Positions 7,755-34,100 of a DNA stretch of 64,000 nucleotides are shown in pieces. The DNA lies in contig NZ_CP011930.1 of NCBI RefSeq assembly GCF_001040945.1, positions 1,488,001 through 1,552,000 of the forward strand. The letters are read 5' to 3'. The notes below the pieces were generated by a model. That model had not been told where the DNA came from. It saw nothing but the letters and a program-made list of their open reading frames with translations, and did no database searches. This DNA is from Herbaspirillum seropedicae (GTDB lineage: Bacteria; Pseudomonadota; Gammaproteobacteria; Burkholderiales; Burkholderiaceae_D). A program made the translations under genes and the position numbers. Each line of letters opens with the position of its first letter. The first letter of the stretch is position 1.

Positions 7755-7818
7755 GATCGGTCTGGCAGCTAGGCGGTCCGGCGCCTGCGGGCGGCGCCGG
7801 ACCATTTTGCTTTGGTAC

Positions 7819-8088
7819 TAGAACCCATTTCATAAATAGGCGTGAGATGCGTTCTGCCCAGAAAGGGCGCTGGCAAGGCGCGCGACGCGTCGTGTGGCGA
7901 TGCCACACGCAAGGAGCGCAACGCGGCCAGCGCCCTTTCTGGGCAGAACCCGGAGGGAGCGGCCCGTTTGGGCGAATTGCTGCGTTACGAGTGGGTCAAG
8001 ACGCCCAGTCTTGACCCAAATTCGCGCCTTGCACTTCATCCCAAACGGGACTCGCTCGCACTCACGCCTATTTATGAAATGGGTTCTA
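7819..8088. repeat. 270-bp nested palindromic, MITE-like element
   Basis: The ends are 28-bp perfect inverted repeats (7819-7846 and 8061-8088, starting TAGAACCCATTTCATAAATA). Inside are a 24-bp perfect inverted repeat (7851-7874 / 7926-7949), whose loop holds a CGTGTGGC hairpin (7891-7909). A second module has arms CCCGTTTGGG (7963-7972 / 8040-8049), GCGAATT (7972-7978 / 8019-8025) and TGGGTCAAGAC (7992-8002 / 8008-8018). No credible gene lies inside; open frames across it are by-products. The dinucleotide AC flanks both ends, which may be a short target duplication. It fills the benK-benE gap and could be a non-autonomous mobile element or a structured RNA. Confidence 0.8.
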
Positions 8089-8121
8089 ACTGTGGACGAC
8101 ATGTGCAGCGGAGAACGCGCA

Positions 8122-9291: not shown

Positions 9292-9309
9292 AAACGCATG
9301 GAGACTGCA

Positions 9310-12891: not shown

Positions 12892-13521
12892 ATGATGAAA
12901 AAACTACTGCCTCAAGTCTTTCGCGGTGCATTGATCCCGGCGCTGCTGGCCAGTCATCTGCTGGTCCCCGTCGCGCTGGCGCAGACCCCGGCGCTGGTCG
13001 GTATCCGCGGCACTATCGTCTCGGTCGGCAAGGATCAGCTCGTCGTCAAGAGCAACAAGGGCGCCGAGCAGAACGTGGCGCTGGACAAGGACACCCGCGT
13101 GGCCGCCATCTCCATTGCCAACATCAGTGACATCAAGCCCGGCAGCTATATCGGCGCGGCCGGCATTCCCCAGCCGGATGGCTCGCAGAAGGCGCTGGAG
13201 GTGCATGTCTTCCCGCCCGCCATGGCCGGCACTGGCGATGGTCATCGTCCCTTCGACCTTGCCCCCAACAGCACCATGACCAACGGCACCGTGGGCGACG
13301 TCATCGCCAGCAATGGCCGCACCCTGACGCTGAAGTACAAGAACGGCGAAAAGAAGATCGTGGTGCCCGAGGATGTGCCGGTGGTCAACATCGAAGCCGG
13401 TGACCGTTCGCTGCTGGCCGCCGGTGTCAAGGTAGTGGTGCGCGCCCGCAAGAATGCCGACGGCAGTCTCACCGCCGCCAGCGTCAGCGCCGGCAAGAAC
13501 GGCATCACCCCGCCGATGTGA
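12892..13521 (+). CDS. Exported protein with repeated small beta-domains (DUF5666-like)
   Basis: A 209-residue protein with a clear signal peptide (to about residue 31, VALAQ). Two similar OB-like beta segments follow: GIRGTIVSVGKDQLVVKS at about 38 and GTVGDVIASNGRTLTLKY at about 135. Each starts with a GT(I/V)-x-V pattern, which is typical of DUF5666-like exported proteins. A second ATG at 12895 is equally possible. It is followed at once by the cytochrome b and molybdopterin genes, so it probably belongs to that periplasmic redox module, perhaps as a binding or maturation partner. That role is inferred from position only. Confidence 0.72.
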   Translation: MMKKLLPQVFRGALIPALLASHLLVPVALAQTPALVGIRGTIVSVGKDQLVVKSNKGAEQNVALDKDTRVAAISIANISDIKPGSYIGAAGIPQPDGSQKALEVHVFPPAMAGTGDGHRPFDLAPNSTMTNGTVGDVIASNGRTLTLKYKNGEKKIVVPEDVPVVNIEAGDRSLLAAGVKVVVRARKNADGSLTAASVSAGKNGITPPM

Positions 13522-13535
13522 CAAGGAGGGCGACG

Positions 13536-14150
13536 ATGTCCCGACCACCCGTTCTTCATCCGCTGGCCGTACGCATTGCCCACTGGCTCAATGCCTTTGC
13601 CATCGCCTGCATGATCAGCAGTGGCTGGGGCATCTATAACGCCTCGCCCCTCTTTCCCTTCAAATTCGCTTCCTGGATGACCCTGGGCGGCTGGCTGGGC
13701 GGTTCCATCGCCTGGCACTTCGCGGCGATGTGGCTGCTGGTGGCCAATGGCTTGTTCTATCTGCTCTATGGCGCGCTGAGCGGCCACTTCCGCCGCCACC
13801 TGCTGCCCGTGCGGGCCGGCGAGGTCTGGCGCGACGCCGGGCAGGCGCTGCGCTTAAAACTGCCGCACCAGCCCGGCGTCTACAACGCCGTGCAGAAGCT
13901 GCTGTATTGGGCGGTGATGCTGCTGGGCATCCTGGTGGTGCTGTCCGGCTTGGCGCTGTGGAAGCCGGTGCAGCTGGACTGGCTGGCCGATCTCTTTGGC
14001 GGCTTCGACTTTGCGCGCAAGGTCCACTTCGCCGCCATGGCGGGCATCGCCGCCTTCGTGGTGGTCCACCTGGCGCTGGTGGCCATCGTGCCCAGGACGC
14101 TCATCCCGATGTTCACCGGCGGCCATGACAAGAAGGCCAATGCATCATGA
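13536..14150 (+). CDS. Membrane cytochrome b561-type subunit
   Basis: A 204-residue membrane protein with four to five hydrophobic helices. Histidines suit haem b ligation: HPLAVRIAHWLNA near the N-terminus, IAWHFAAMW mid-protein, KVHFAAMAG and VVHLALVAIVP near the end. It resembles the cytochrome b561 or hydrogenase-type b subunits that pass quinol electrons to periplasmic oxidoreductases. AAGGAGGG at 13523-13530 favours the ATG at 13536 over the one at 13518 that overlaps the previous stop. Its stop overlaps the start of the molybdopterin gene, so the two probably form one complex. Confidence 0.85.
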   Translation: MSRPPVLHPLAVRIAHWLNAFAIACMISSGWGIYNASPLFPFKFASWMTLGGWLGGSIAWHFAAMWLLVANGLFYLLYGALSGHFRRHLLPVRAGEVWRDAGQALRLKLPHQPGVYNAVQKLLYWAVMLLGILVVLSGLALWKPVQLDWLADLFGGFDFARKVHFAAMAGIAAFVVVHLALVAIVPRTLIPMFTGGHDKKANAS

Positions 14151-14923
14151 AAGACAAGGACGACAAGCACGCGCCGAAGACGGAAAAGATCCTGCTGGCC
14201 GACCATCGCCCGGCTCTGGTGCAGGTGCAGCGCCGCCTCATGCTGCGCTCGGCGCTGTCGCTGGGGGCGCTGTCCATGCTCTCGGGCTGCGACCTGCAGG
14301 ACAATGACAGCGTGGACAAGGTGCTGTGGGCCATGTCGCGCTGGAATGATCGCGTGCAGGCGCTGCTGTTTCGCAGCCACAAACTGGCGCCCACCTATGC
14401 GGCCAGCCAGATCACGCATCCTTTCCCGTTCAACGCCTTCTATGACGAGTTCAATGCGCCCGACATCGATGGCAGCGACTGGAAGCTGGAAGTCTCGGGC
14501 CTGGTCAGCGACAAGCGCAGCTGGACGCTGGAGCGCCTGCGCGCACTGCCGCAGGCCGGCCAGATCACCCGTCACATCTGCATCGAGGGCTGGAGCGCCA
14601 TCGGCCAATGGTCCGGCGTGCCGCTGCGGCTGTTCCTGCAGGCGGTGGGTGCGGACCTGACGGCCAGGTATGTCGGCTTCAAATGCGCCGACCGCTATTA
14701 CTCCAGCCTGGACATGCCCACCGCGCTGCATCCGCAGACCATCCTCGCACTCGACTTCGGCAAGGAGGCCTTGCCGACACAGTATGGCTATCCCCTCAAG
14801 GTGCGCGTGCCGACCAAGCTGGGTTTCAAGAATCCCAAGCATGTGGTGGCCATCTTCGTGAGCAACCAGAACCCTGGCGGCTATTGGGAAGACCAGGGCT
14901 ACAACTGGTTCAGCGGCATCTGA
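14147..14923 (+). CDS. Tat-exported molybdopterin oxidoreductase (sulfite-oxidase/MsrP fold)
   Basis: A 258-residue protein of the sulfite-oxidase-type molybdopterin family. The signal region holds a twin-arginine motif RRLMLRS and then a lipobox LSGC (about residue 48), so it looks like a Tat-exported lipoprotein facing the periplasm. The Mo-ligand cysteine is in RHICIEGWS, followed by the family marks IGQWSGVPL and GYPLKVRVPTKLGFK. It overlaps the cytochrome b gene by four bases (ATGA). By analogy with MsrP/MsrQ it may be a periplasmic reductase fed by quinol electrons, but its substrate is not predictable from sequence. Confidence 0.85.
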   Translation: MKDKDDKHAPKTEKILLADHRPALVQVQRRLMLRSALSLGALSMLSGCDLQDNDSVDKVLWAMSRWNDRVQALLFRSHKLAPTYAASQITHPFPFNAFYDEFNAPDIDGSDWKLEVSGLVSDKRSWTLERLRALPQAGQITRHICIEGWSAIGQWSGVPLRLFLQAVGADLTARYVGFKCADRYYSSLDMPTALHPQTILALDFGKEALPTQYGYPLKVRVPTKLGFKNPKHVVAIFVSNQNPGGYWEDQGYNWFSGI

Positions 14924-14944: not shown

Positions 14945-17869
14945 TCATGGCATCGGCATGGCGCGCGAACGTGCGATGGCGGCTTCCACACCTTGCCAGG
15001 CCGGCTTGCCGGCGGCGAATTCGCTGCGCAGATAGGCCAGCAGGTCCACCATCTGTGCATCGCTGAAACTGTTGGCGAAGCCAGGCATGTAACCCAAGGC
15101 AGGATTGGCCGGTTCGCGGATGCCATGCAGGATCACGTGGACCAGGTTGTCAGGCGTATCGCTGTGCAGATTGGTATTGACCCGCAGCGAGGGTTTGACG
15201 CCGAACAGGGTCGGGCCGGTGCCTTCCTGGTGGCAAGCCGCACAGGCCCCTGCGAACAGGCGCTGGCCATTGGCCCGTGAGCGCAGCTCGGCCGGGCTGG
15301 GCGCTTGCGCGGCCGATGCCGGTACGGGCGCCGCAGGGCTGCTGGCTGCGCCGGACTGGAACGAAGCCAGGTAATGCGCGATGGCGCGCACGTCACCCGG
15401 CGGCAACTGCGCCAGCTCGGCCACCACTGGCGCCATCGGCCCGGCTGCGATGCCATGCCGTGCAGAGAAGCCGGTGCGCAGATAGGCAAACAATTCTTCC
15501 TCCGTCCACGGCGTGGGTGACTTCGACAAGGCCGTCAGCGCCGGCGCCTCCCAGCCATCGACCATGCCGCCGCCCAGGTAGTGGCGTCCCCCTTTTTCGG
15601 CCCCGAGCGCATTGCGTGGCGAGTGGCAGGCCGCGCAATGGCCAGCACCTTCGACCAGGTAGGCCCCGCGGTTCCACAGGTCCGAGCGCGCCGGATCGGG
15701 CTGGAATACCTGGGGATCATGGAACAGCGTATTCCAGCCCGCCAGCAAGGGCCGCAGATTGAAGGGGAAGCGCAAGTCATTGGCCGGCGGCGTGCTGGCC
15801 ACGGCCGGCTGCGCCATCAGGTAGGCATAGAGCGATTGCATGTCGGCCTCGCTGATCTTGGCGAAGGCGGTATAGGGGAAGGCCGGGTAGAGATGCCTGC
15901 CGTCGCGGTGGATGCCTTCGCGCATGGCGCGTTCAAAGGCGGCGTAGGACCAGTTGCCGATGCCGGTGTGCTCGTCGGGCGTGATGTTGGTGCTGTAGAC
16001 GGTGCCGAAGGGCGTCTGCAAGGCGTGGCCGCCGGCGTTGGTCGCCCCGCCCGGCGCGGTGTGGCAGACCGCGCAATCACCCGCCAGCGCCACCCGTCGT
16101 CCCCGCTCGATGGTGGCGGCCGAGTAGAGGTCGGGATCGGGACGTGCGATGGGCGCGATCTCGCTGCGCCAGGGCATCGCCAGGGTCAGCGTAGCGCCCA
16201 CGGCCGCCACGGCCGCGCCCAGCCAGCCATATTTGCGCCAGCGCTGCGCGCCGCTGGCGGGCGCGGATGCGTTCAAGGCCAGCCGGATCTGCTCGCCGGA
16301 AAAGGGCGCCTGGCGCAGCCGCACGCCAGTGGCGGCATAGACAGCATTGGAGATGGCCGCCGCCGCCGGCAGCGTAAAGGCCGCGCCGGCATTGAGCTGG
16401 ATGTTCTGCAGGGCCGCCGGTGTCCCCACCAGTTCGACCGTCGGCAGTGCGGTGCGCTGGGGCAAGCCGAGCGAGGAGGGCAGGGTGGACGGCAGGCCCG
16501 CTTCGCTCGACCAGGCGTCGAAGCCCTGGCCGCCATGCATGCTCTGCGCCAGCGCCAGCCGGGCCTGCTGGTCGAGCCGTTCGGCGTTGGCTTGCGCCAG
16601 CACAGGGCTGGTGGCGGGCGCTTGCCCGGCGGCGCGTACGTCGTGTCCGGCGGTGACCTTGGTCACGCTCAGTTCGCCGGAGGCTTCGTCGTATTCCACC
16701 TCGGCGACCCAGGCCGACCAGCTCTGCACGGGCTGGCCGGCGTGCTGCTCGATCGTGCTGGCATAGGCGAAGCCGCGTCCGCGCAAGCGGCCGCCCTGGC
16801 GCTGGCCTTGCTGCCGGGCGGGATGCCAGCGGGCGCCGTGCGCCACCGAACGGATCAGGTCCCTGCCGTGGCTGTCGGGCAGGTGGGCCAGGCGATACTG
16901 GACCGGATCCTGCCCCAGGCGCTGCGCCACTTCATCCAGAAAGACTTCCTGCGCAAAGCAGGTGGCGGCGACCGGCACGCTGGCCTCCAGCGCAGCGCTG
17001 ACATGCACGCTGCGCCAGTCATAAGGCGGGGCCAGCGCCGCGCCATCGATGGCGGCAGCGTCCTGCAGCGCATAGGCGGTCTCTGTCAGCAGCCAGGCCA
17101 GTGGGGGCGCGGGGCTGTCCTGGGTAATGTCCAATGTGGTGTTGCCCAGCGCGCCATCCTCATCGAATTCGCCGCGCAGGTGCAGCGAGGTCGAGAGGGC
17201 CGGCGCTTCTGCGGGCGTCAGCGCCAGCGAGACCGCTTCGCCACACTGCTGGCACAGCAGCGCCGCCACACCGGCCACATCGGAGGCGGCGCGATACTCG
17301 CGGGCGTCGGCGGGTGCGCGGTGGCTGCGCACTTCGATCTGGGCGACGGGCAGAGCGAGCAAGCCCGCGACTTCGAGCGCGATGGCGGCGGGATTGCCGA
17401 AGGGCAGATCGATGCGCATGCCTGTTCCGCTGGGTGCCGCCAGGGCTACCACGTCGGGGGACGAGAGGGTGGCTTCGCCATCCTGCCATTGATAGTCGGC
17501 TTCCAGCGTGAGGTCGTACAGGCCTTCTTCTTCCTTGCCGCGCTGATAAAGGCTGTGCGCCTGGCGTGGGCGTAGCGCCCGGTCGTCGTCGGCCGGCGTG
17601 CTCCAGCGCGGCTTGAGCAGGGCGCAGGCCTGGCGCGCCTGGGCGTCGCTGTCGGCGATGACGGCCAGCAGGTGGCGCTGTTGCACCAGCCTGTGCACGC
17701 CGGGCAATCCCAGCGCGGCGTCCACGTCCACGCCTTGCAGGCGCGCGCCGGTATAACGCTGCGATTGCCAACCCAGCACCGGCGGCAGGGCCAGCCGGGC
17801 ATGGCGCAACGAGGCTAGGGAGGCGGGCGTGGCGGTGGCCGTCGCACGCAAGTCGACGCTGCCCATCAT
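14945..17869 (-). CDS. Triheme cytochrome c protein fused to a degenerate Mo-hydroxylase domain (NicB-like)
   Basis: A 974-residue protein matching the carboxyl half of nicotinate dehydrogenase NicB. Residues about 20-530 resemble the xanthine-dehydrogenase-type molybdenum subunit but lack the N-terminal block with the GHVDLGTG-type motif. Where the family has GxGE near the end, this protein reads NAGA (493-496), so the catalytic glutamate is alanine. A membrane segment at about 547-566 follows, then three haem c sites: C599-x2-C602-H603, C745-x2-C748-H749 and C876-x2-C879-H880. It starts within the nicA stop (ATGA on the minus strand). It is probably the membrane electron-exit subunit of the nicotinate hydroxylase, paired with NicA and the Mo subunit at 22173. 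Confidence 0.85.
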   Translation of the reverse strand: MMGSVDLRATATATPASLASLRHARLALPPVLGWQSQRYTGARLQGVDVDAALGLPGVHRLVQQRHLLAVIADSDAQARQACALLKPRWSTPADDDRALRPRQAHSLYQRGKEEEGLYDLTLEADYQWQDGEATLSSPDVVALAAPSGTGMRIDLPFGNPAAIALEVAGLLALPVAQIEVRSHRAPADAREYRAASDVAGVAALLCQQCGEAVSLALTPAEAPALSTSLHLRGEFDEDGALGNTTLDITQDSPAPPLAWLLTETAYALQDAAAIDGAALAPPYDWRSVHVSAALEASVPVAATCFAQEVFLDEVAQRLGQDPVQYRLAHLPDSHGRDLIRSVAHGARWHPARQQGQRQGGRLRGRGFAYASTIEQHAGQPVQSWSAWVAEVEYDEASGELSVTKVTAGHDVRAAGQAPATSPVLAQANAERLDQQARLALAQSMHGGQGFDAWSSEAGLPSTLPSSLGLPQRTALPTVELVGTPAALQNIQLNAGAAFTLPAAAAISNAVYAATGVRLRQAPFSGEQIRLALNASAPASGAQRWRKYGWLGAAVAAVGATLTLAMPWRSEIAPIARPDPDLYSAATIERGRRVALAGDCAVCHTAPGGATNAGGHALQTPFGTVYSTNITPDEHTGIGNWSYAAFERAMREGIHRDGRHLYPAFPYTAFAKISEADMQSLYAYLMAQPAVASTPPANDLRFPFNLRPLLAGWNTLFHDPQVFQPDPARSDLWNRGAYLVEGAGHCAACHSPRNALGAEKGGRHYLGGGMVDGWEAPALTALSKSPTPWTEEELFAYLRTGFSARHGIAAGPMAPVVAELAQLPPGDVRAIAHYLASFQSGAASSPAAPVPASAAQAPSPAELRSRANGQRLFAGACAACHQEGTGPTLFGVKPSLRVNTNLHSDTPDNLVHVILHGIREPANPALGYMPGFANSFSDAQMVDLLAYLRSEFAAGKPAWQGVEAAIARSRAMPMP

Positions 17870-18348
17870 TGCCTTCCCCGCTGCAGTTCGACGGCGCGCA
17901 GTGCGGCCCGCAGGATTTCCACATGGGTGCCGCAGCGGCAGAGGTTGAAGTCCAGTTCGTGACGGATCTCGTCTTCGCTGGGCGTGGGGGAGCGCAGCAG
18001 CAAGGCCTTGATGGTCATGATCATGCCGTTGAGGCAGTAGCCGCACTGCGCACCCTGTTCATCGATGAAGGCTTGCTGCACCGGGTCCAGACGGCCGTCC
18101 TGTTCCAGTCCATCGAGCGTGGTGACGTGGCGCGCGGCCACGCCGGCCAGCGGGATCACGCAAGAACGCGCCGCCACCCCATCGACCAGCACCGTACAGG
18201 CGCCGCATTCACCCAGGCCGCAGCCGAACTTGGGGCCGTTGAGGCAAAGGTCGTTGCGCAACACGTTGAGCAGCGGCGCATCGGCGGCGATGTCCAGGCT
18301 GACCGGGACGCCGTTGACATGGAAGGTGATGGGTTCTTGCTTGTGCAT
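17866..18348 (-). CDS. nicA: Nicotinate dehydrogenase [2Fe-2S] subunit
   Basis: A 160-residue two-cluster ferredoxin subunit of the nicotinate hydroxylase, which makes 6-hydroxynicotinate. The plant-type cluster uses Cys43, Cys48, Cys51 and Cys63, and the second (helical) cluster uses Cys102, Cys105, Cys137 and Cys139. This is the standard pattern of xanthine-oxidase-family small subunits. It is first in a leftward two-gene unit, coupled to the triheme gene by an ATGA overlap. Its promoter should lie in the 401-bp divergent gap shared with nicE. Related isoquinoline and picolinate dehydrogenases look alike; the surrounding nic genes decide the assignment. Confidence 0.87.
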   Translation of the reverse strand: MHKQEPITFHVNGVPVSLDIAADAPLLNVLRNDLCLNGPKFGCGLGECGACTVLVDGVAARSCVIPLAGVAARHVTTLDGLEQDGRLDPVQQAFIDEQGAQCGYCLNGMIMTIKALLLRSPTPSEDEIRHELDFNLCRCGTHVEILRAALRAVELQRGRQ

Positions 18349-18500
18349 GGTCTCTCTGTTGCTGCAGGCGCCTCGGGGGCGCTGGTGGAATGGTCGTCAG
18401 CGCATGGTGAAGCATCCTTCATGCCAATGCGCTTGCTGCGGGGAGTATGCCTGTGCTCGCAGGGACTGTCAGGCTGACCTCCTTCCTGGTCTGGAAAAGA

Positions 18501-18511
18501 GTGTACACATT
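18501..18511. promoter_or_regulatory. nic operator-like box 1 (nicA side)
   Basis: GTGTACACATT, whose first eight bases are a perfect palindrome. It is the same core as the boxes at 25939 and 30256. Likely bound by the MarR-type NicR or an unseen regulator (inference). Confidence 0.55.
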
Positions 18512-18688
18512 GAATAATGCCAAGTAAATCGCAAATTTCCATGCTGCATTGCGCGGTCTCGAACTGGTGCGAGATGGGGTCGGAAACTCCCGTATTTGGT
18601 GCTGCATCGCACATAAATAGGGAATTGCCCGGTTCTGCTGGTGCGTGTGAAAAACGCTGTTGCAAAGATCCGGGAAATGATTAAATAT

Positions 18689-18701
18689 AGTGTATGCATT
18701 A
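18689..18701. promoter_or_regulatory. nic operator-like box 2 (nicE side)
   Basis: AGTGTATGCATTA, preceded by AAATAT, 49 bp before the nicE start. It shares the GTGTAYGCATT core and AT-rich flank with the other nic gaps. Confidence 0.55.
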
Positions 18702-18749
18702 CAAATTAGCGAACTTCGCATGACCACGGCAGATCAAGGAGAACCTCAC

Positions 18750-19505
18750 ATGCAGCAGCGTCTTTACCGTATCGGGCAAATCGTCCCCAGTTCCAACACC
18801 ACCATGGAGACCGAGATCCCGGCCATGCTGACGGCGCGCCAGGCGATCCGCCCCGAGCGTTTCACCTTCCACTCCAGCCGCATGCGCATGAAGAAGGTGG
18901 TCAAGGAAGAGCTGGCGGCCATGGATGGTGAGTCCGATCGCTGCGCCGTCGAGCTTTCGGACGCTCGCGTGGATGTGTTGGGTTACGCCTGCCTGGTGGC
19001 CATCATGGCCATGGGGCGCGGCTATCATCGCCAGTCCGAGCAGCGCCTGACCGCCCACACCGCCGCCAATGGCGCCGACGCACCGGTGGTCACCAGCGCC
19101 GGCGCGCTCATCGATGCCTTGAAGGTCATCGGCGCGAAGAAGATCGTGGTCGTGGCGCCCTACATGAAGCCCTTGACCGAGCTGGTGGTCGATTACATCC
19201 GCCATGAAGGGTATGAAGTGCTGGACTACCGTGCGCTGGAAATCCCCGACAACCTCGACGTAGCCCGTCATGACCCGGCCAGGCTGCCTGCCATCGTGGC
19301 CCAGATGGATACCAGCCAGGTCGACGCCATCGTCCTCTCGGCCTGCGTGCAGATGCCCTCGCTGCCGGTGATCGCCCAGGTCGAGGCGATGACCGGCAAG
19401 CCCGTCATCACCGCGGCTGTGGCCACGACCTACGCCATGCTCAAGCGCCTGGAGCTGGACCGCATCGTGCCGGGCGCGGGTGCGCTGCTCTCCGGCGCTT
19501 ACTGA
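18750..19505 (+). CDS. nicE: Maleate isomerase
   Basis: Isomerises maleate to fumarate, the last step of the nicotinate pathway. The 251-residue protein belongs to the Asp/Glu racemase-like family. It has the two catalytic cysteines at Cys81 (GYACLVAIM) and Cys199 (LSACVQMPS), within one residue of the numbering I recall for the P. putida enzyme. The N-terminal IGQIVPSSNTTMETE block is typical. AAGGAGAA at 18736-18743 favours the ATG at 18750; an in-frame ATG at 18690 lies within the operator region. It is first of a rightward operon with nicD, nicX, nicF and the Mo subunit. Confidence 0.93.
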   Translation: MQQRLYRIGQIVPSSNTTMETEIPAMLTARQAIRPERFTFHSSRMRMKKVVKEELAAMDGESDRCAVELSDARVDVLGYACLVAIMAMGRGYHRQSEQRLTAHTAANGADAPVVTSAGALIDALKVIGAKKIVVVAPYMKPLTELVVDYIRHEGYEVLDYRALEIPDNLDVARHDPARLPAIVAQMDTSQVDAIVLSACVQMPSLPVIAQVEAMTGKPVITAAVATTYAMLKRLELDRIVPGAGALLSGAY

Positions 19506-19515
19506 GAGGTGCGCC

Positions 19516-20349
19516 ATGCATAGCCACTCCAGTAGCTTCCTCTACGGCGCCAACGTCCAGGCCAACGGCATCCGTCAGCATTACCTGCGCTATGGCGGCA
19601 ACGACGGTGCGCGCGCCAGTCGCGACGCCGTCATCATCCTGCCCGGCATCACCAGTCCTGCGGTGACCTGGGGCTTTGTGGGCGAGCGCTTCGGCCAGCA
19701 ATTCGATACCTATGTGCTGGATGTGCGCGGCCGTGGTCTGTCATCGGCTTCCGATACGCTGGACTACAGCGTGGACGCCCAGGCCGCCGACGTGATCGCG
19801 CTGGCCCAGGCGCTGGGCCTGTCGCGTTACGCCATCGTCGGCCATTCCATGGGCGCACGCATCGGTGCGCGCGCCGCACGCCAGACGCCGCAGGGATTGA
19901 CGCGGCTGGTGATGGTGGACCCGCCGGTGTCCGGCCCGGGCCGCCGTGCCTATCCGTCCAAGCTGCCCTGGTATGTGGATTCGATGCGCCTGGCGCGCGC
20001 GGGCTGTTCGGCCGAGCAGATGCGCGCCTTCTGTGCGACCTGGACCGAGGAACAGTTGCAGTTGCGCGCCGAATGGCTGCATACCTGCGACGAGCGCGCC
20101 GTCATCGCCAGCTTCGAGGAATTCCATACCGGTGATTTCCATGCCGACCTGCCCGCGCTGCGCCTGCCGGTGATGCTGATGCAGGCCTCGCGCGGCGACG
20201 TCATCCTGCCCGAGGATGTGGCCGAGATCCGCAGCCTGCTGCCGCAGGTGGTGGTGAGCCGCGTGGAAGAGGCCGGCCACATGATTCCCTGGGATAACGA
20301 GGCCGGTTTCTACGCCGCCTTCCGCGACTTCCTCGGCGCAACGCTGTAG
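19516..20349 (+). CDS. nicD: N-formylmaleamate deformylase
   Basis: An alpha/beta hydrolase of 277 residues that removes formate from N-formylmaleamate to give maleamate. The triad is visible as Ser111 (GHSMG), Asp135 (MVDPPVSG) and His255 (EEAGHMIPWD). Each lies ten residues later than the published P. putida NicD triad (101/125/245). The oxyanion region ILPGITSP is conserved. The ATG at 19516 lies 10 bp after nicE, with GAGAGGTG just before it. It sits between nicE and nicX in the same operon. Confidence 0.93.
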   Translation: MHSHSSSFLYGANVQANGIRQHYLRYGGNDGARASRDAVIILPGITSPAVTWGFVGERFGQQFDTYVLDVRGRGLSSASDTLDYSVDAQAADVIALAQALGLSRYAIVGHSMGARIGARAARQTPQGLTRLVMVDPPVSGPGRRAYPSKLPWYVDSMRLARAGCSAEQMRAFCATWTEEQLQLRAEWLHTCDERAVIASFEEFHTGDFHADLPALRLPVMLMQASRGDVILPEDVAEIRSLLPQVVVSRVEEAGHMIPWDNEAGFYAAFRDFLGATL

Positions 20350-20388
20350 ATCCCGTTCATCGAATGATCGATTGCAAAGGAGAACACC

Positions 20389-21444
20389 ATGGCCGTCAGC
20401 GACCATGACCTGATCAGCGCCTGGCAACAGGTGCTGAGCTTGTCCAGGCTGGAGGCGGGACAGATCGTCACCGTCCTCACCAGCAGCACTACCCATCCGC
20501 AGACCCTGTCCACCGCCATGACCGCCGCTGCGCTCATGGGCGCGACCGTCAATCGTCTGGACCTGCCGCCGGTCAACGCGGAAAAGGCCCTGAGCCGCGA
20601 CTCGCTGGCCTACCTCGGCACCACCCCGCTGACCGGCAACCGCGCCGCCATCGCCGCCCTCCAGGAAAGCGACCTGGTGCTGGACCTGATGACCCTGCTG
20701 TTCTCGCCCGAGCAGCACGAGATCCTCGCCACCGGCACCAAGATCCTGCTGGCGGTGGAGCCGCCCGAGGTGCTGGTGCGCATGGTGCCCAGCGAAGATG
20801 ATCGCCGCCGCGTGGCACAGGCGGCGCGCCTGCTGGAAGGCAAGCGTGAGATGCACATCAGCTCCGACGCCGGCACCGACCTGCGCTGCCCGCTGGGCGA
20901 GTTCCCGGTGATCCAGGAATATGGCTTTGTCGACCAGCCGGGCCGCTGGGACCACTGGCCCAGCGGATTCGTGCTGACCTGGCCCAATGAGCGGCAGACC
21001 AACGGCACCCTGGTCATCGACCGGGGCGATATCCTCTTGCCCATGAAGTGCTATGCGCAGGAAGCCATCGAGGTCACCGTGAAGGATGGCTTCGTCACCC
21101 GTATCGAAGGCGGGCTCGACGCCGAACTGCTGAGCGACTACATGGCCTCCTTCAAGGATCCGGAAGCCTATGCCATGTCGCATATCGGTTGGGGCCTGCA
21201 ACCACGCGCGCAATGGTCCACCCTGGCCATGTACGACCGCGAGGCCACCATCGGCATGGATGCCCGCGCCTACGAAGGCAATTTCCTGTTCTCCTTCGGT
21301 CCCAACAATGAAGCCGGCGGCAGCCGCACCACGGCCTGCCACATCGATATCCCGCTGCGCCGCTGCACGGTGGCGCTCGATGGCGTGCCAGTGGTCAAGG
21401 AGGGCAAGGTATTGGACGGCTTCGTCTACGGCAATTCGAAATGA
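20389..21444 (+). CDS. nicX: 2,5-Dihydroxypyridine 5,6-dioxygenase
   Basis: Opens the ring of 2,5-dihydroxypyridine with O2 to N-formylmaleamate, using non-haem Fe(II). The protein has 351 residues. The iron ligands fall at His265 (AMSHIGWG), His318 and Asp320 (TACHIDIPL), identical in number to P. putida NicX. A ribosome site AAGGAGAA precedes the ATG. It lies 39 bp after nicD. The match of ligand positions makes this one of the firmest calls in the window. Confidence 0.96.
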   Translation: MAVSDHDLISAWQQVLSLSRLEAGQIVTVLTSSTTHPQTLSTAMTAAALMGATVNRLDLPPVNAEKALSRDSLAYLGTTPLTGNRAAIAALQESDLVLDLMTLLFSPEQHEILATGTKILLAVEPPEVLVRMVPSEDDRRRVAQAARLLEGKREMHISSDAGTDLRCPLGEFPVIQEYGFVDQPGRWDHWPSGFVLTWPNERQTNGTLVIDRGDILLPMKCYAQEAIEVTVKDGFVTRIEGGLDAELLSDYMASFKDPEAYAMSHIGWGLQPRAQWSTLAMYDREATIGMDARAYEGNFLFSFGPNNEAGGSRTTACHIDIPLRRCTVALDGVPVVKEGKVLDGFVYGNSK

Positions 21445-21488
21445 GGCCAGCCGGCGATGGCCGGCAGCCTCCCGCAAAGGAAGATACG

Positions 21489-22112
21489 ATGCACAAGGAA
21501 GTGGAAACCTACCAGCGCCAGGGCTTTGGCCAGACGCTGGAAATGAAGCCGCCGTTCGGGCTGCTGATCGTCGATTTCGTCAACAGCTTCGCCGATCCGC
21601 AGCAGTTCGGCGGCGGCAACATCCCGCAGGCCATCGAGCGCACGCGCAGCCTCCTGGCGCACGCGCGCCAGCAAGGCTGGCCGGTGGCGCACAGCCGCAT
21701 CGTGTTTGCCGATGATGATGCTGACCGCAACATCTTCGGCATGAAGGTGCCCGGCATGGTGACCCTCAAGGAAGACCTGCCCGGCAGCGCCATCGTGCCG
21801 CAACTGGCCCCGGCCAACGGTGAACTGGTGGTGCGCAAGACCGTGCCGTCGGCGTTCTTTGGCACCTCGCTGGCGCCGTGGCTGACGCAGCATGGTGTGC
21901 AGACCCTGCTGGTGGCCGGCGCCGTGACCAGCGGTTGCGTGCGCGCCAGCGTGGTGGACGCCATGTCCTGGGGCTTCCGCCCGCTGGTGGTGTCGGATTG
22001 CGTGGGCGACCGCGCCCTCGGCCCGCACGAGGCCAATCTGTTCGACATGGCGCAGAAGTATGCGGCCGTGATGCCGCTGGACGAGGCCATGCAGGTGGTC
22101 GGCCAGCGTTGA
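21489..22112 (+). CDS. nicF: Maleamate amidohydrolase
   Basis: Hydrolyses maleamate to maleate and ammonia. The 207-residue isochorismatase-like protein has the expected triad Asp29 (LLIVDFVNSF), Lys117 (VVRKTVPSAFF) and Cys150 (AVTSGCVRAS). AAAGGAAG at 21476-21483 supports the ATG at 21489; an upstream in-frame ATG at 21441 would add residues unlike the family. It follows nicX by 44 bp. Its product maleate is the substrate of NicE. Confidence 0.93.
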   Translation: MHKEVETYQRQGFGQTLEMKPPFGLLIVDFVNSFADPQQFGGGNIPQAIERTRSLLAHARQQGWPVAHSRIVFADDDADRNIFGMKVPGMVTLKEDLPGSAIVPQLAPANGELVVRKTVPSAFFGTSLAPWLTQHGVQTLLVAGAVTSGCVRASVVDAMSWGFRPLVVSDCVGDRALGPHEANLFDMAQKYAAVMPLDEAMQVVGQR

Positions 22113-22172
22113 TGTCTGCAGCGGGCAAGGCCGGTGCGGACCCGATGAATGTGACATGCAAGATGCGCTGAC

Positions 22173-24452
22173 ATGCAAGCAATGAACCCTACCGCCCCGA
22201 CCCCGCGCGAGGCCCGCCGCCAGCTGCTCTCGCGCAGCGACGTGCTGCTGGTGACGCGGGCCCCCCAGCCGGGCGTGAAGCCCGCGCCCGGCCAGCCGGG
22301 GGCGGCGTCTTCCTATGTGCAGCCCTTGCCGGATGTGTTCGTGGCCATCCTGGGCGAGGGACAGGTGCTAGCCTTCAATGGCCACGTCGACCTGGGAACC
22401 GGCATCCGCACCTCGCTGGCGCAGATTGTGGCCGAAGAGTTGAGTCTCTCCATGGAGCAGGTCAGCATGATCCTCGGGCATACCGAGGAGGCGCCCAACC
22501 AGGGGCCGACGATTGCCAGCGCCACCATCCAGATTTCCGCCATGCCGTTGCGTAAGGCCGCCGCCCAGGCGCGCGAGCACCTGCTGGCGATGGCCGCTGC
22601 GCGCTGGGCGACGCCGGTCGGGCGTCTGCGCGTGGAGGCGGGCTGCATCATCGATGCCGACGTGGCGGGGCGCACTATCAGTTATTTCGAATTGCTGCGC
22701 GGGCAACGCATCGTGCTCACGCTGGAACCCGGCGAGGTGCCGCTCAAGCCGGTGAGCCAGTACACGCTGGTGGGACGTAGTTCGCAGCGGGTCGATATTC
22801 CGGCCAAGGTGCGCGCGCAGCCTGTGTATGTGCATGATGTGCGTGTGCCTGGCATGCTGCATGGCCGCGTAGTGCGCCCGCCGCATCCTGGCCGCGACGG
22901 CGGGGATTTCGTCGGCCGCAGCCTGCTGGCGGTGGATCGCCAATCGGTGGCCCACATTCCCGGCCTGGTCGCGGTGGTGGTGGAGGGGGATTTCATCGGC
23001 GTGGTGGCCGAGCGGGAAGAGCAGGCGCAACGCGCCATGCGCGAACTGAAGGTGCAGTGGAAGAGCATCCCGCCGCTGCCGCCCATGGACGACCTGGAAG
23101 CGCGCCTGCGCAGCCTGCCCGCCCGGCGGCGCGAGCTGGTGCGCCAGGGCGATCCGGACGCCGCCAGCGCCAGCGCCGCTGGCCACATCGAGCGGACCTA
23201 TGTCTGGCCCTATCAGCTGCATGCATCCATCGGGCCGTCTTGCGCGGTGGCGGACTGGCGGCCGGAAGGCTTGACGGTCTGGTCCGGCACCCAGAATCCC
23301 CATGTGATGCGCATCGACCTGTCGCGCCTGTGTGATCTGGACGAAGGCAGCATCGAAGTGATCCGGCTGGAAGCCTCGGGCTGCTATGGCCGCAATTGCG
23401 CAGACGATGTGGTGGCCGATGCGGCCCTGTTGTCACGCGCCGTAGGACGGCCGGTGCGGGTGCAGCTCACCCGTGAGCAGGAACACGCCTGGGAGCCCAA
23501 GGGGGCGGCCCAGCTCATGGACGTGTGCGGCGGCGTCGACGCCCAGGGGCGGCTGTCGCACTATCGCTTCCAGACCCGTTATCCCTCCAATGATGCGCCG
23601 GTGCTGGCCTTGCTGTTGACCGGCAAGATCGCGCCAGAACCGCGCGTGCTGGAGATGGGCGACCGCACCGCCGTGCCGCCCTATGCCTACCCGCATATGC
23701 AGATCGATTGCGATGATGTCGCGCCCATCGTGCGCGCCGGATGGTTGCGTGGGGTGTCGGCCATGCCCAATTCCTTTGCTCACGAGGTCTTCATCGACGA
23801 ACTGGCCGAGCTGGCCGGAGCGGACCGGCTGGCTTTCCGGCTGGCGCATCTGCCGGACCAGCGCGCCAGCGAGCTGTTGCAGGCGGTAGCGCACAAGGCG
23901 GGATGGGTCGCGCATGCCCAGGGCTCGCGCGGGCAGGTACAGGCCGACGGCAAGCTGCGCGGACGCGGCATCGCCTATGCGCGCTACGTCCATAGCAAGT
24001 TTCCGGGCTTTGGGGCGGCCTGGTCGGCTTGGGTCATCGATGTCGAAGTCGATCCGGTCACAGGCGCGCTGGCCGTCACCTCGCTGGTGGTGGGCCAGGA
24101 TACCGGCATGATGGTCAACCCGGCCGGGGTGCGCCATCAGATGCACGGCAATATCCTGCAATCCCTGAGCCGGGTGCTGAAGGAACGGGTGGCCTTTGGG
24201 CCGCACGGCGCCAGCAGCCTGGAGTGGGGCGCTTACCCCATCCTGCATTTCACCGAAGTGCCGCCCATCGAGATCGTGTTGATGGAGCGCCAGGACCAGC
24301 CGCCCATGGGCGCCGGCGAATCGGCCTCGGTGCCGAGTGCGGCGGCCTTGTCCAATGCGCTCTTCGACGCCACCGGCAGACGCCTGCGCCAGCCGCCCTT
24401 CAATGCGGAGTGCATCCTGGCGGCGCTGCAGGAACCGCTGGCGGCGGGGTGA
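22173..24452 (+). CDS. nicB: Molybdenum-binding catalytic subunit of nicotinate hydroxylase
   Basis: A 759-residue xanthine-dehydrogenase-family molybdenum subunit, probably hydroxylating nicotinate at C6. It has the N-terminal cofactor motif GHVDLGTGI (70-78), the hammerhead region at about 210-290, and the catalytic glutamate in GAGE (Glu716). Unlike P. putida NicB it has no cytochrome c domains; these are in the leftward protein at 14945-17869. A second ATG at 22182 is equally plausible and no clear ribosome site decides. It ends the nicEDXF operon, 60 bp after nicF. The job is inferred from context; related enzymes act on picolinate or isoquinoline. Confidence 0.85.
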   Translation: MQAMNPTAPTPREARRQLLSRSDVLLVTRAPQPGVKPAPGQPGAASSYVQPLPDVFVAILGEGQVLAFNGHVDLGTGIRTSLAQIVAEELSLSMEQVSMILGHTEEAPNQGPTIASATIQISAMPLRKAAAQAREHLLAMAAARWATPVGRLRVEAGCIIDADVAGRTISYFELLRGQRIVLTLEPGEVPLKPVSQYTLVGRSSQRVDIPAKVRAQPVYVHDVRVPGMLHGRVVRPPHPGRDGGDFVGRSLLAVDRQSVAHIPGLVAVVVEGDFIGVVAEREEQAQRAMRELKVQWKSIPPLPPMDDLEARLRSLPARRRELVRQGDPDAASASAAGHIERTYVWPYQLHASIGPSCAVADWRPEGLTVWSGTQNPHVMRIDLSRLCDLDEGSIEVIRLEASGCYGRNCADDVVADAALLSRAVGRPVRVQLTREQEHAWEPKGAAQLMDVCGGVDAQGRLSHYRFQTRYPSNDAPVLALLLTGKIAPEPRVLEMGDRTAVPPYAYPHMQIDCDDVAPIVRAGWLRGVSAMPNSFAHEVFIDELAELAGADRLAFRLAHLPDQRASELLQAVAHKAGWVAHAQGSRGQVQADGKLRGRGIAYARYVHSKFPGFGAAWSAWVIDVEVDPVTGALAVTSLVVGQDTGMMVNPAGVRHQMHGNILQSLSRVLKERVAFGPHGASSLEWGAYPILHFTEVPPIEIVLMERQDQPPMGAGESASVPSAAALSNALFDATGRRLRQPPFNAECILAALQEPLAAG

Positions 24453-24475
24453 GCAGGCCTCGCGCAGGGCCGGGT

Positions 24476-24916
24476 CTACTCCTCGATCATCTTGCGCAGG
24501 AGGAACACCAGCGCCACGCGTTCAGCCGGATTGAGGTTGCCATAGGTCGCCTCGCTGATCTGGGCGGCGAAGGGCACGGTGTCGGCCACCAGCGTGGCGG
24601 CGCTCTTGCTGAGCGACACCAGCACCTTGCGGCGGTCGGCCTCGTCGTGGGACAGCTCGATCAGGCCGCGTGCCTTGAGGCGCTCCACGATGCCGCGAAT
24701 GGTGGCCTGGTCGATGGCGGTCACCTTGACGATGTCCGACAGCGAGCAGGTCTCCAGGTCGCGGATGGCGCACAGGGTCACGAACTGCGCGGCCGTCAAC
24801 TGCGAATCCGGGATGTGCTGCTGGAAGATAGCGGCATGGCGCTGGTAGGCGCGGCGCAGCAGGTGGCCGATCTGGTCGGAAAAGTGATATTGGGCAGAAA
24901 CGGTCTTCTTGGTCAT
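24476..24916 (-). CDS. nicR: MarR-family repressor, NicR-like
   Basis: A 146-residue winged-helix regulator. The recognition region SLSDIVKVTAIDQATIRGIVERL and the wing DEADRRKVLVSLS are visible. In P. putida, NicR represses the nicC/nicX units and is released by 6-hydroxynicotinate; the same role is inferred here. It is convergent with the Mo subunit gene (23 bp apart) and divergent from the flavin-reductase gene at 25135. The start at 24916 is chosen by comparison with family length; an ATG at 24943 would add nine residues. The repeated GTGTAYACATT boxes are candidate operators. Confidence 0.8.
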   Translation of the reverse strand: MTKKTVSAQYHFSDQIGHLLRRAYQRHAAIFQQHIPDSQLTAAQFVTLCAIRDLETCSLSDIVKVTAIDQATIRGIVERLKARGLIELSHDEADRRKVLVSLSKSAATLVADTVPFAAQISEATYGNLNPAERVALVFLLRKMIEE

Positions 24917-25134
24917 GGGCACCGGAGATGAGTGGCTCGGCATGCCCTGGTCGCCGGCGGCGAGCAAAGGGCAGCTGTTGATTCTAATGTCCTGTTTGCC
25001 CGCTGTATACGTGGCAGAGGCCAGACCCGCTGCGGTCCCTGAGGAAGCCTTGGCGCGCTGGCGCGTCGGCGCGGTCCGTTTGGTGATGGGGGCAGGGCGT
25101 GTTGCTGTGGTTTTCATCGGAGAGGTAGGCAAGT

Positions 25135-29001: not shown

Positions 29002-30039
29002 ATGGACAGCATCGACCTCGATGTACTCAAGCGCAGTCAGCAGTGGCTTGAGGCTGGCCGTGGCGTGTTGCTGGCCACGGTGGTGCGCACCTGGGGTTCG
29101 GCGCCACGGCCGGTCGGGGCGATGCTGGCCTTGCGTGACGATGGTGCGCTGGTGGGATCGGTCTCGGGCGGTTGCATCGAGGATGATCTCATTGCCAGCG
29201 TGCAGCGCGATGGCATCGTGCCGCAGCGGCCGGGGCGGCTGGTCTATGGCGTCGATGCCGACCAGGCGCATCGCTTTGGCCTGCCCTGTGGTGGCACCCT
29301 GGAGCTGGTGACCGAACCCTTGTCGGCGCAGAGCCGCATCGGCGAGTTGCTGTCCATGCTGGCCGAAGGGCGCTTGGTGCACCGGCGGCTTTGCCTGCGC
29401 AGTGGCGAGGTGCGTCTGGAGTCGGCACCTGCGGGCAGCAGCCTGCAGGTGGATGCGCATGCGCTGGTGACGGTGCATGGTCCGCGCTATCGCCTGCTGG
29501 TCATCGGTGCGGGAGAGCTGTCGCGCATCCTCTGTGCGATGGCGCTGGCGCTGGATTTCCAGGTGACGGTCTGTGATCCGCGCAGCGAGTACCTCGATCA
29601 GTGGGACCTGGCGGGCGTGGAGCTGGTGCGCAGCATGCCCGACGACACCGTGGATGCGATGCAGCCCGATGCCTGTTCGGCCGTGCTGGCCTTGACGCAC
29701 GATCCCAAGCTCGATGACCTGGCGCTGATGCAGGCGCTCAAGACGCCGGCCTTCTATGTCGGTGCGCTCGGTTCGCGCGCCAACAACCATGCCCGACGCG
29801 AGCGGCTGCGGCTGTTCGATCTCACTGCTGCGCAGCTGCAGGCGCTGCGCGGACCCGTGGGGATCTTCATCGGCAGCAAGACACCCGCCGAGATCGCCAT
29901 TTCTGTCATGGCCGAGATCGTGGCCGTGCGTAATGGCGTATTGCTGCCACGCGTGTGGGGTGTTGAAGAGGCCAAGTCGCTGCGTGGGGCGCCTGCTGCT
30001 GAGTCTTCGGGAAGTGCGTGCAGATTGCGTCATGGGTAG
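29002..30039 (+). CDS. xdhC: XdhC/CoxI-family molybdenum cofactor insertion protein
   Basis: A 345-residue protein that loads mature Mo cofactor into xanthine-oxidase-family enzymes. It has an N-terminal XdhC/CoxI domain (RTWGSAPRPVGAMLAL and SVSGGCIEDDL) and a C-terminal Rossmann domain (YRLLVIGAGELSRIL; YVGALGSRAN). It likely serves the NicAB-type hydroxylase. It sits 30 bp after the porin with a GAGGAG ribosome site. With the MobA-like gene at 33080 it gives the cluster its own cofactor maturation set. Confidence 0.88.
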   Translation: MDSIDLDVLKRSQQWLEAGRGVLLATVVRTWGSAPRPVGAMLALRDDGALVGSVSGGCIEDDLIASVQRDGIVPQRPGRLVYGVDADQAHRFGLPCGGTLELVTEPLSAQSRIGELLSMLAEGRLVHRRLCLRSGEVRLESAPAGSSLQVDAHALVTVHGPRYRLLVIGAGELSRILCAMALALDFQVTVCDPRSEYLDQWDLAGVELVRSMPDDTVDAMQPDACSAVLALTHDPKLDDLALMQALKTPAFYVGALGSRANNHARRERLRLFDLTAAQLQALRGPVGIFIGSKTPAEIAISVMAEIVAVRNGVLLPRVWGVEEAKSLRGAPAAESSGSACRLRHG

Positions 30040-30249: not shown

Positions 30250-31485
<1,236 letters not shown>

Positions 31486-31620: not shown

Positions 31621-32937
31621 ATGTCCACGCTACCCGCGTCAGTGGAACAGGGGCTACAGGCCGCCGGGGTCGGGAAGTTCCAGTATCGCTTGTTCGTCAT
31701 CTTCGGTCTGGTCTGGCTGGCCGATGCGATGCAGGTCCTGTCCATCGGCTTCTCGGCGCCGACCATCGCCAAGACCTTCGGCCTGACCGTGCCGCAGGCA
31801 CTGCAGACCGGCACCATGTTCTTTGTCGGCATGCTGCTGGGCGCGTTCGTCTTTGGCCGCCTGGCCGACCGCATCGGCCGCCGTCCGGTGCTCATGGGGG
31901 CGGTGGTGATCGATGCCTGCTTCGGCGTGGCCTCGGCCTTCGCGCCTGATTTCACCTGGCTCTTGGCCTTGCGCCTGCTGACCGGGATCGGCGTGGGCGG
32001 CACGCTGCCGGTGGACTACACCATGATGGCCGAATTCCTGCCCAGTGCGCGACGCGGGCGCTGGCTGGTGATGCTGGAATCGTTCTGGGCCATCGGCACC
32101 ATCTGCCTGGCCGTGCTGGCGCTGGTGGCGGTGAGCTGGGGCAATGACGCCTGGCGCGTGATCTTCTTCGTCACCGGCCTGCCGGCCCTGGTGGGCGTGG
32201 TATTGCGCTTCTATGTGCCGGAGTCGCCGATGTATCTCAACCGCAGCGGCAAGTCCGACGCCGCGCGCCAGGTGCTGGAGCGGGTGGCCAAGGTCAATGG
32301 CAGCAGCACGCCGATCCCGCCGCTGCAACCCGAGGTGGTGGAGCGCAAGCCCATGAGCGCGCTGTTCTCGGCTGCCCTGCGCCGCCGCAGCCTGTCGCTG
32401 TACCTGGCCTGGGGCTTGATCTCGATTGCCTACTATGGGGTGTTCGTCTATCTGCCGGTCAAGCTGGGTTCGGAAGGCTTCGGTTTCATGCGTGGCCAGA
32501 TCTTCCTGATCTTCCTGGCGCTGGTGCAGTTACCCGGTTATGCGTTGTCGGCCTATGGGGTGGAGCGCTGGGGCCGCAAGCCCACGCTGGTGGGTTTCCT
32601 GGTGCTCTCGGCGGTGGGCTGCATGCTCTACAGCCTGGGCAAGGACCCCATGCTGGTGGTCGGTTCCACGCTGTTGTTGAGTTTTTCCCTGCTGGGTACC
32701 TGGGCCGCGCTGTACGCCTTCACGCCCGAGGTCTATCCCACCGACCTGCGCGCCAGCGGCATGGGCACGGCCGGCGCGGTGGCCCGCTTTGGCGGCCTGT
32801 TCGCCCCGGCCATCGTGGCGCCCGTCATGGCCAGCCATTTCACGCTGGCGCTGGCGATGCTGTCGGCCTTCCTGGTGGCAGGCGCCGTGGCCATTCTTTG
32901 CGTGGATGTGGAGTCGCGCAATCGTGCGCTGGAGTAG
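31621..32937 (+). CDS. nicT: MFS nicotinate transporter
   Basis: A 438-residue major facilitator protein of the AAHS/sugar-like branch with about 12 hydrophobic segments. The loop 2-3 motif FGRLADRIGRRP is present. It also has an acidic first helix (WLADAMQVLSIGF) and PTDLRASGMGTAGAVARFGG in the second half. It follows nicC by 135 bp with GAGGAGAG before the ATG. Position suggests import of nicotinate or 6-hydroxynicotinate. A strong terminator follows. Substrate is inferred from context. Confidence 0.85.
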   Translation: MSTLPASVEQGLQAAGVGKFQYRLFVIFGLVWLADAMQVLSIGFSAPTIAKTFGLTVPQALQTGTMFFVGMLLGAFVFGRLADRIGRRPVLMGAVVIDACFGVASAFAPDFTWLLALRLLTGIGVGGTLPVDYTMMAEFLPSARRGRWLVMLESFWAIGTICLAVLALVAVSWGNDAWRVIFFVTGLPALVGVVLRFYVPESPMYLNRSGKSDAARQVLERVAKVNGSSTPIPPLQPEVVERKPMSALFSAALRRRSLSLYLAWGLISIAYYGVFVYLPVKLGSEGFGFMRGQIFLIFLALVQLPGYALSAYGVERWGRKPTLVGFLVLSAVGCMLYSLGKDPMLVVGSTLLLSFSLLGTWAALYAFTPEVYPTDLRASGMGTAGAVARFGGLFAPAIVAPVMASHFTLALAMLSAFLVAGAVAILCVDVESRNRALE

Positions 32938-33079: not shown

Positions 33080-33697
33080 TCATCTCTGAGATTGCGCCAG
33101 CACCCGCACCCGGCGCAGATCCTCTGCCGTATCCACATCGGCAAAGATGCCCTCGTCCATCACCTCCAGTTCCGTCACCGGATGTGTCTTCAGCAAGGCG
33201 CGTGCGCCCTGGTCGCCGTGCAAGGCCAGCAGGGCGTCCAGGTGAGCGCGTCCGAATCCGACCGGGTGGCCGCGCCGGCCCTGCATGACCGGGGCCACGA
33301 TGGGCGCGCCGGCGGCCAGCGCGTCGCGCAGCAGGCAGAGGGTGGACAGGTCCACGCACGGCATGTCGGCCAGCGCCACCAGCCAGCCCGAGGCCTGTGC
33401 GCTGTGCTGCACGCCGCATCGCAAGGACGCGCTCATTTCCCGCGATGACGCTGGCGCGGGCATGCAGACCGCGCAGCCTTGCGCGCGCAGGGCCTCGGCC
33501 AGCGCGCCCGGTCCGGGCACCACGGCCAGCACCGGCATCACCTCCAGCAACGCGGCCGCGGCCGCAGTGGCGACCATGCCTGGCCGTCCGTCATGGTGCG
33601 GGAAGGCTTGCAGCAGCTTCTCTTCGCGCGCATCGAAGCGGCTGCCGCGGCCAGCTGCCAGGAGCAGGGCGATGGGTGGGGAGGAGGGGATGGTCAT
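33080..33697 (-). CDS. MobA-like (MocA-type) molybdopterin nucleotidyltransferase
   Basis: A 205-residue nucleotidyltransferase. The N-terminal signature LLAAGRGSRF is followed by the catalytic lysine region EEKLLQ; ALADMPCVD and GRRGHPVGFGRAHLDAL are typical of MocA/MobA-like enzymes. It probably adds CMP to molybdopterin, making the cytosine dinucleotide cofactor used by xanthine-oxidase-type hydroxylases. The start at 33697 (MTIPSS) is chosen because the longer frame adds unrelated residues. It is convergent with nicT and probably belongs functionally to the nic cluster. Confidence 0.82.
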   Translation of the reverse strand: MTIPSSPPIALLLAAGRGSRFDAREEKLLQAFPHHDGRPGMVATAAAAALLEVMPVLAVVPGPGALAEALRAQGCAVCMPAPASSREMSASLRCGVQHSAQASGWLVALADMPCVDLSTLCLLRDALAAGAPIVAPVMQGRRGHPVGFGRAHLDALLALHGDQGARALLKTHPVTELEVMDEGIFADVDTAEDLRRVRVLAQSQR

Positions 33698-34100
33698 GGA
33701 GTCTGGGCGGAAGGAATGCCGGCGGGAAGGTGCTATTGTGCCCAACTTATCGCACTGCCGCTTCCTCGGCGGAGATGCGCTCAGGTGGCGTTTCGACCAC
33801 GCTGGAGCAGGTCGCCAACAGATGTTTATGTTTTTTATTTCATAACATTTTCATCTCCCCTGTGTTCTGCACGCCACGCTGCACGCTGCTTTACCGCTAT
33901 GCCTTGCTTTTTCGGCATGGGACATTTCTTAATTTTGATATAGTCGGCAACGTAAGGCACTTCTAGAATCGATTGCGTGACAGCAACGCAGGCACCAGTC
34001 TTGCTAGCTCGGCATGGGGGGCAAGCCGGCTGGGACGGAAGCAGGGTGGGATCCGTCCCCCGGGATGCCGGGAATAACGCGGAAGCGATGGAAAGAATCA
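33698..34100. other. 403-bp intergenic region before a chemoreceptor
   Basis: No gene is seen. An AT-rich stretch at about 33825-33965 (for example TTTCTTAATTTTGATATAGTC near 33925) probably holds the promoter for the chemoreceptor at 34101. I see no clear operator. Confidence 0.4.

Follow-up and report, generated by a model that had tools for sequence, protein, structure and literature searches.

The nicotinate cluster and its two molybdenum-subunit paralogues

The window analysed here is a 64-kb stretch of the complete 5.51 Mb genome of Herbaspirillum seropedicae, and all coordinates refer to it. It contains a nicotinate cluster with two paralogous molybdenum (Mo) subunits, NicB1 (22173..24452, forward strand) and NicB2 (14945..17869, reverse strand), together with the small 2Fe-2S subunit NicA (17866..18348, reverse strand; Pfam Fer2 and Fer2_2). 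Both open reading frames lie where the original prediction had placed them, and their paralogy is borne out by 30% identity over 563 columns (E = 2e-43). NicB1 (759 residues) carries the domains MoCoBD_1 and MoCoBD_2, the N-terminal motif GHVDLGTG at residue 70 and Glu716 within GAGE (713-716), that is, all the marks of a catalytic Mo subunit of the xanthine oxidase family, and zero CxxCH haem sites; motif reading agreed here with the prediction. The N-terminal block was present, and CxxCH absent, in NicB1 and in all of the best 120 of 8000 homologues. A Herbaspirillum seropedicae protein (P0062) shares 99% identity with NicB1.

NicB2 (974 residues) consists of a Mo-subunit-like domain at residues about 1-540 (coding stretch 16232..17869, reverse strand, whose 546 residues served as the query), a hydrophobic helix at about 547-565, and three c-type haem sites (CxxCH at residues 599, 745 and 876). 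Its ATG overlaps the stop codon of the 2Fe-2S gene as ATGA, which supports position 17869 as the start. The domain retains the Mo-subunit fold, yet it fails as a catalytic subunit: the N-terminal GHVDLGTG cofactor block is missing, and LNAGAAF, with no GxGE, stands where NicB1 has MGAGESA. Nor is NicB2 a fused NicB, the protein type in which an intact Mo domain and the haems share one chain. Pfam recognised cytochrome domains only, with no Mo domain, and NCBIfam returned weak tail matches only; this blindness to the Mo-like domain explains why databases name such proteins as mere c-type cytochromes. The missing block, the NAGA and the three haem sites had all been correctly foreseen, but the membrane helix is a moderate one: NicB2 has its strongest hydropathy windows elsewhere, and the AlphaFold confidence at the helix is low. 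Membrane insertion is nevertheless likely, since the helix sits where the alignment to the membrane subunit 8gy3_A starts.

The locus therefore has the make-up of a tripartite enzyme (NicA beside the haem subunit, a separate haem-free Mo subunit, and a subunit joining a Mo-like part to three haems, all in a nicotinate cluster), and the sequences support the predicted arrangement of a catalytic NicB1 and a haem-bearing NicB2 with an apparently dead Mo-like domain, hereafter the pseudo-domain. A genome-wide search yielded no further Mo-domain match as strong as NicB1 or NicB2; six additional haem-only matches were found elsewhere.

NicA-NicB2 run leftward, and nicE-D-X-F-B1 rightward, from an intergenic gap of 341 bases (18349..18689). 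The proposal that the two paralogues lie on opposite strands around one control region thus holds for the divergence, but only loosely, NicB1 being the fifth rightward gene. The four genes before it, all on the forward strand, encode a maleate isomerase (NicE-like, 18690..19505; Pfam Amdase), an alpha/beta hydrolase corresponding to N-formylmaleamate deformylase (NicD-like, 19480..20349), the 2,5-dihydroxypyridine 5,6-dioxygenase NicX (20389..21444; 7cn3_A, E = 7.5e-124) and an isochorismatase-fold hydrolase corresponding to maleamate amidohydrolase (NicF-like, 21441..22112). Beyond NicB1 lie a MarR-family regulator (NicR/BpsR-like, 24476..25132, reverse strand), a flavin-reductase-like protein, a chemoreceptor and a porin, an XdhC-type maturation factor (29002..30039, forward), a flavin adenine dinucleotide-dependent monooxygenase corresponding to 6-hydroxynicotinate 3-monooxygenase (NicC-like, 30256..31485, forward), a major facilitator superfamily transporter (NicT-like, 31621..32937, forward) and a MobA-like nucleotidyltransferase probably involved in Mo-cofactor maturation (33080..33745, reverse). 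The names nicC, D, E, F and T, and that of the regulator, were assigned by analogy with annotated clusters. The gene set is a whole nicotinate (maleamate) cluster that contains both NicB1 and NicB2. When 18349-18689 and 24453-25134 were searched for inverted repeats, no convincing operator of the MarR regulator emerged; a single such repeat, 7 bases long, was present in the control region.

Adjoining the cluster, a DUF5666 protein, a cytochrome b561 and an Oxidored_molyb (sulfite-oxidase-type) protein are encoded consecutively at 12892-14923 (forward strand), representing a second, unrelated molybdoenzyme. An adjacent, overlapping pair of dynamin-like GTPase genes is found at 9298-12113 (forward strand).

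Motif loss and distribution of NicB2

Relatives were collected in a scan with an alignment of B1 proteins, a single-query scan of genome contigs having returned zero relatives. The named loci are the best 80 of the 581 relatives so obtained, and are those nearest to NicB1 rather than a random sample; 60 hold a B1 and 20 a fused NicB, the latter all from records named Paraburkholderia or Burkholderia. The Mo regions of 70 B1, 48 fused NicB and 79 B2 proteins were aligned. The B2 set comprised the protein of the window, 30 of 59 homologous proteins and 48 loci, and the NicB set another 28 of those 59 plus 20 loci. The 59 proteins were sorted after the motifs were known, which makes the contrast partly one of choice, while profile scores, regardless of motifs, decided the class of each locus. 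The set is not unique by species; P0050, a NicB without its start, was excluded, as were L102, which is in pieces, and L094 and L096, truncated at contig ends, leaving 48 of 51 B2 loci.

GHVDLGTG was found in 70/70 B1 and 48/48 NicB but in 0/79 B2, and the same figures were obtained for GxGE at its aligned place. The NAGA-type state is absent from B1 and NicB, and no B2 has the glutamate in GxGE at the aligned place. The Glu716 column reads E in every B1 and NicB and in 5/79 B2 (P0034, L099, L111, L108 and L103), never in a GxGE context; the idea that the catalytic glutamate is retained nearby in B2 was discarded, the nearest approach being the SESAS of P0034. One GxGE occurs in the B2 of L058, away from the aligned place. 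Among the profile-sorted loci, the N-terminal block was seen in 0/51 B2, and both block and GxGE in 20/20 NicB. The loss recurs in the 48 B2 loci, whose choice rested on profile scores alone, which indicates that it is not a matter of chance.

The loss in B2 extends well beyond the E-to-A change. The segments PNQGPTIAS, HASIGPSCAVAD, GCYGRNCADDV, WEPKG and RAGWLRGVS are also degraded (mean identities 0.04-0.21), while LRGRGIAYA, AWSAWVIDV and VPSAAALSNALFDATG are retained (0.63-0.72). Of the 212 columns at least 97% invariant across B1 and NicB, 67 are retained and 145 lost in the majority of B2. B2 is, however, unlikely to be a simple pseudogene: the ratio of nonsynonymous to synonymous substitution rates (dN/dS) is well under 1 for B2 pairs, indicating relaxed but purifying selection (these pairs overlap, dS exceeds 1.5 in some part of three of them, and none includes the window gene), and 48 of 51 B2 loci have open frames. 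In the Burkholderia/Caballeronia NicB2 of L108, L113, L099 and L111 the dead domain scores poorly on the B2 profile (151-185 bits), and those of L108 and L113 are markedly short as well. In L110 (Paenalcaligenes niemegkensis, 6372-9330) two overlapping frames encode the dead domain and the haem part, reflecting a frameshift, a sequencing error or two genes; the NicB2 of L102 (Cobetia crustatorum, 388-3421) is divided among three frames, being either broken or badly sequenced.

A survey for the same split, as suggested with the original prediction, found it in 54 of the 60 B1 loci, which hold B2 or at minimum its Mo-like part (just the B2 start, at a contig end, in L067 and L069), always with NicA. 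B1 was on the strand opposite B2 in all 48 measurable split loci. B2 was not seen in six (L035, L060, L066, L089, L095 and L109), the search being genome-wide for all except L109. Genera bearing B2 include Acidovorax, Bordetella, Delftia, Achromobacter, Comamonas, Cupriavidus, Azoarcus, Pusillimonas, Alcaligenes, Caballeronia and Cobetia. The pseudo-domain is widespread and conserved, apparently fixed in many Burkholderiales and occurring also in a few gammaproteobacteria (Cobetia, Alloalcanivorax).

A more even census of 250 genomes drawn evenly from the order gave B1 with a B2-like stretch on the same contig in five (G000, G174, G244, G277 and G160); of these, haems were observed in the window, L122 and L128 alone. 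Three genomes (G219, G143 and G212) had frames of 1416-1460 residues, fitting a fused NicB by length, and two (G134 and G174; loci L120 and L121) had an iron-sulphur (FeS) subunit, a Mo subunit and a plain cytochrome. The genome of L121 holds two kinds, the plain-cytochrome set and a B1/B2 system (L122). At the threshold of the census, no long B2-like match occurred without B1 except for a 30% match in a 745-residue frame (G185). On a plasmid of Pseudomonas BYT-1 (L033, 8001-10358), an unannotated match to residues 195-972 only lies directly after an IS6100 transposase.

Role of the pseudo-domain

We consider that Herbaspirillum probably has a three-subunit nicotinate hydroxylase of the NicA-NicB1-NicB2 type, in which the pseudo-domain was kept as a surface holding the cytochrome part to NicB1. 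Judging from sequence and from knowledge of the family, NicB1 would bind the Mo cofactor and hydroxylate nicotinate, and electrons would pass from its Mo to the 2Fe-2S clusters of NicA, on to the three c-type haems of NicB2 and into the respiratory chain. Over its first 540 residues NicB2 has preserved the fold while losing the cofactor motifs and the catalytic glutamate, and this stretch most likely survives as a protein surface that tethers the cytochrome part to NicB1. Neither NicA nor NicB1 has an evident export signal by eye, while c-type haems are fitted in the periplasm, so that electrons would have to cross the membrane from an apparently cytoplasmic Mo part.

Docking to NicB1, which the original prediction had put forward, is our best guess and finds some support in the tracking of evolutionary distances. 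In 40 loci, the partial correlation of the pseudo-domain was highest with B1 (0.49; bootstrap 0.39-0.57), its own haem part reaching 0.23 and NicX 0.09; the correlation with B1 was 0.56 with ranks and 0.57 with raw distances (41 loci). NicX was the only usable control, NicD and NicF having failed (correlations 0.08-0.25), probably because of paralogues. Several observations weigh against docking. When pseudo-domain pairs more than 0.7 apart were left out, the correlation with B1 fell to 0.27, and in the same reduced set B1 and the haem part gave 0.35, the pseudo-domain and NicX 0.31, and B1 and NicX 0.27. The pseudo-domain is about three times as divergent as B1 (mean distance 1.37 versus 0.46) and is shorter in a few loci. 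Further, the FeS-Mo-plain trihaem sets of L120 and L121 lack it, so it is not needed in principle. Docking is plausible on indirect evidence, with a link to B1 that weakens once distant pairs are dropped.

Part of this evidence would fit a less specific role, which we regard as unlikely though worth keeping in mind: a folded stub serving the stability, membrane insertion or haem maturation of NicB2, with no specific contact to NicB1. Such a stub would be in keeping with the relaxed but purifying selection, with the many retained residues that are glycine, alanine, tryptophan or proline, as in a fold core, with the shortest versions of the domain in L108, L113 and L103, and with the lost lead of the B1 link in the reduced set. 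The plain cytochrome relatives cut both ways, since they manage without a pseudo-domain but for that very reason suggest that a stub is unnecessary for haem maturation; and in the full set the pseudo-domain tracks B1 more than its own haem part.

It is rather improbable that the pseudo-domain is instead a landing site for NicA, with NicA bridging to NicB1. In 48/48 measured split loci NicA neighbours NicB2 and is read in the same direction, and raw distances link it equally to the pseudo-domain and the haem part (0.31 each). The fused nicA-nicB arrangement has the identical gene order, however, so this order may be inherited, and with corrected distances NicA correlated with the haem part at 0.40 versus 0.12 for the pseudo-domain. 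That NicB1 and NicA-NicB2 serve different enzymes or pathways, as their opposite strands and separation of up to about 6 kb might suggest, is very hard to credit, because one complete nic cluster holds both, the genes co-occur, B1 alone would be without an electron outlet and B2 alone without an active site, and the enzyme is termed tripartite in the part of the literature consulted (PMC10269826).

Descent of the subunits and known hydroxylases

The Mo-domain tree was rooted and had 52 rows, including hand-picked 13 B2, 15 NicB and 17 B1; another analysis used 88 thinned rows. B1 formed a single clade (100/99), sister to the fused NicB of Paraburkholderia (100/97) within a paraphyletic NicB. 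B2 likewise formed a single clade (100/100); its branch, 1.43 changes per column long, falls inside the NicB range (97/92). In a haem-domain tree of 43 rows, B2 and NicB fell in one group (86/91) beside the plain cytochromes of L120 and L121, and just 25% of bootstraps had a branch that set B2 apart from all other rows. These placements suggest that B1 and B2 both probably descend from fused NicB, B1 by loss of the cytochrome and B2 by loss of the catalytic half. A single simple duplication, with B1 and B2 as sisters, was rejected (p 0.012), as was a clade of B2 with NicB (p 0.032), while B1 with NicB and without B2 was not (p 0.16); the long B2 branch and its unsure placement limit all three tests and make the first a weak one. 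The two rejections, by which B1 and B2 may not share one duplication, also speak against the reading adopted here. Our tentative proposal, held with somewhat less than even confidence, is that the split arose by complementary decay of two whole fused copies and not by gene breakage, the leftover pseudo-domain pairing with its active relative and holding the cytochrome. If true, this would be a pseudoenzyme subunit in the xanthine oxidase family.

The three-part split itself is already known. In the portions of the literature consulted, nicA, nicB1 and nicB2 are listed for Delftia (PMC4572682), the enzyme of Burkholderia gladioli and Bordetella is termed tripartite (PMC10269826), the Pusillimonas enzyme NahAB1B2 is referred to as a new hydroxylase of three components (PMC6346535), and Zhang et al. 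are credited with showing two Mo-containing subunits in Alcaligenes faecalis JQ135 (PMC6403243). The systems of Delftia Cs1-4, Bordetella, B. gladioli NGJ1 and Pusillimonas sp. T2 have the same three genes and cluster type as Herbaspirillum, and in the Delftia and Bordetella relatives B2 also lies beside NicA with B1 on the other strand; no structural difference was found, Herbaspirillum being another host genus. The consulted portions of PMC4572682, PMC10269826, PMC6346535 and PMC6403243 do not mention the dead state of the B2 Mo-like domain. A narrow search aimed at dead Mo subunits retrieved one paper, on mouse AOX1 mutants, which is thin ground for claiming absence. To our knowledge no pseudo-subunit of this kind has been described in molybdenum hydroxylases, although with so narrow a search prior notice elsewhere is quite possible.

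Fused NicB has the same Mo fold followed by the helix and three haems, and is the likely ancestor of B1 and B2, from which it differs as a single chain with intact GHVDLGTG and GxGE (48/48). The one-chain state, predicted for P. putida, was confirmed in other bacteria (Paraburkholderia, Azorhizobium, Xanthobacter, and plasmids of Pantoea, Azospirillum and Pseudomonas BYT-5) and is stated for P. putida in the consulted part of PMC10269826. The L120 and L121 sets have consecutive FeS, Mo and trihaem genes, with a Mo subunit 51-56% identical to NicB1 and a separate trihaem subunit that, unlike NicB2, has no Mo-like domain. They are perhaps like NdhSLM of Comamonas testosteroni JA1, a likeness drawn from reported subunit sizes (21, 82 and 46 kD); the 46 kD part is called a flavoprotein in the portion of a review consulted, unlike the L120/L121 cytochrome. 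The cytochrome chain of the Gluconobacter oxydans membrane aldehyde dehydrogenase (PDB 8gy3), at 444 residues, is too short to hold a Mo-like domain.

What remains of interest is a widespread, conserved pseudo-domain, which looks like a preserved structural partner, and the apparent complementary decay of fused enzymes. Three natural variants exist, namely fused NicB and two split forms, in which the haem subunit either bears a dead Mo domain or is a plain cytochrome, and their comparison could show how electrons exit from the FeS subunit to c-type haems, and why the dead domain persists.
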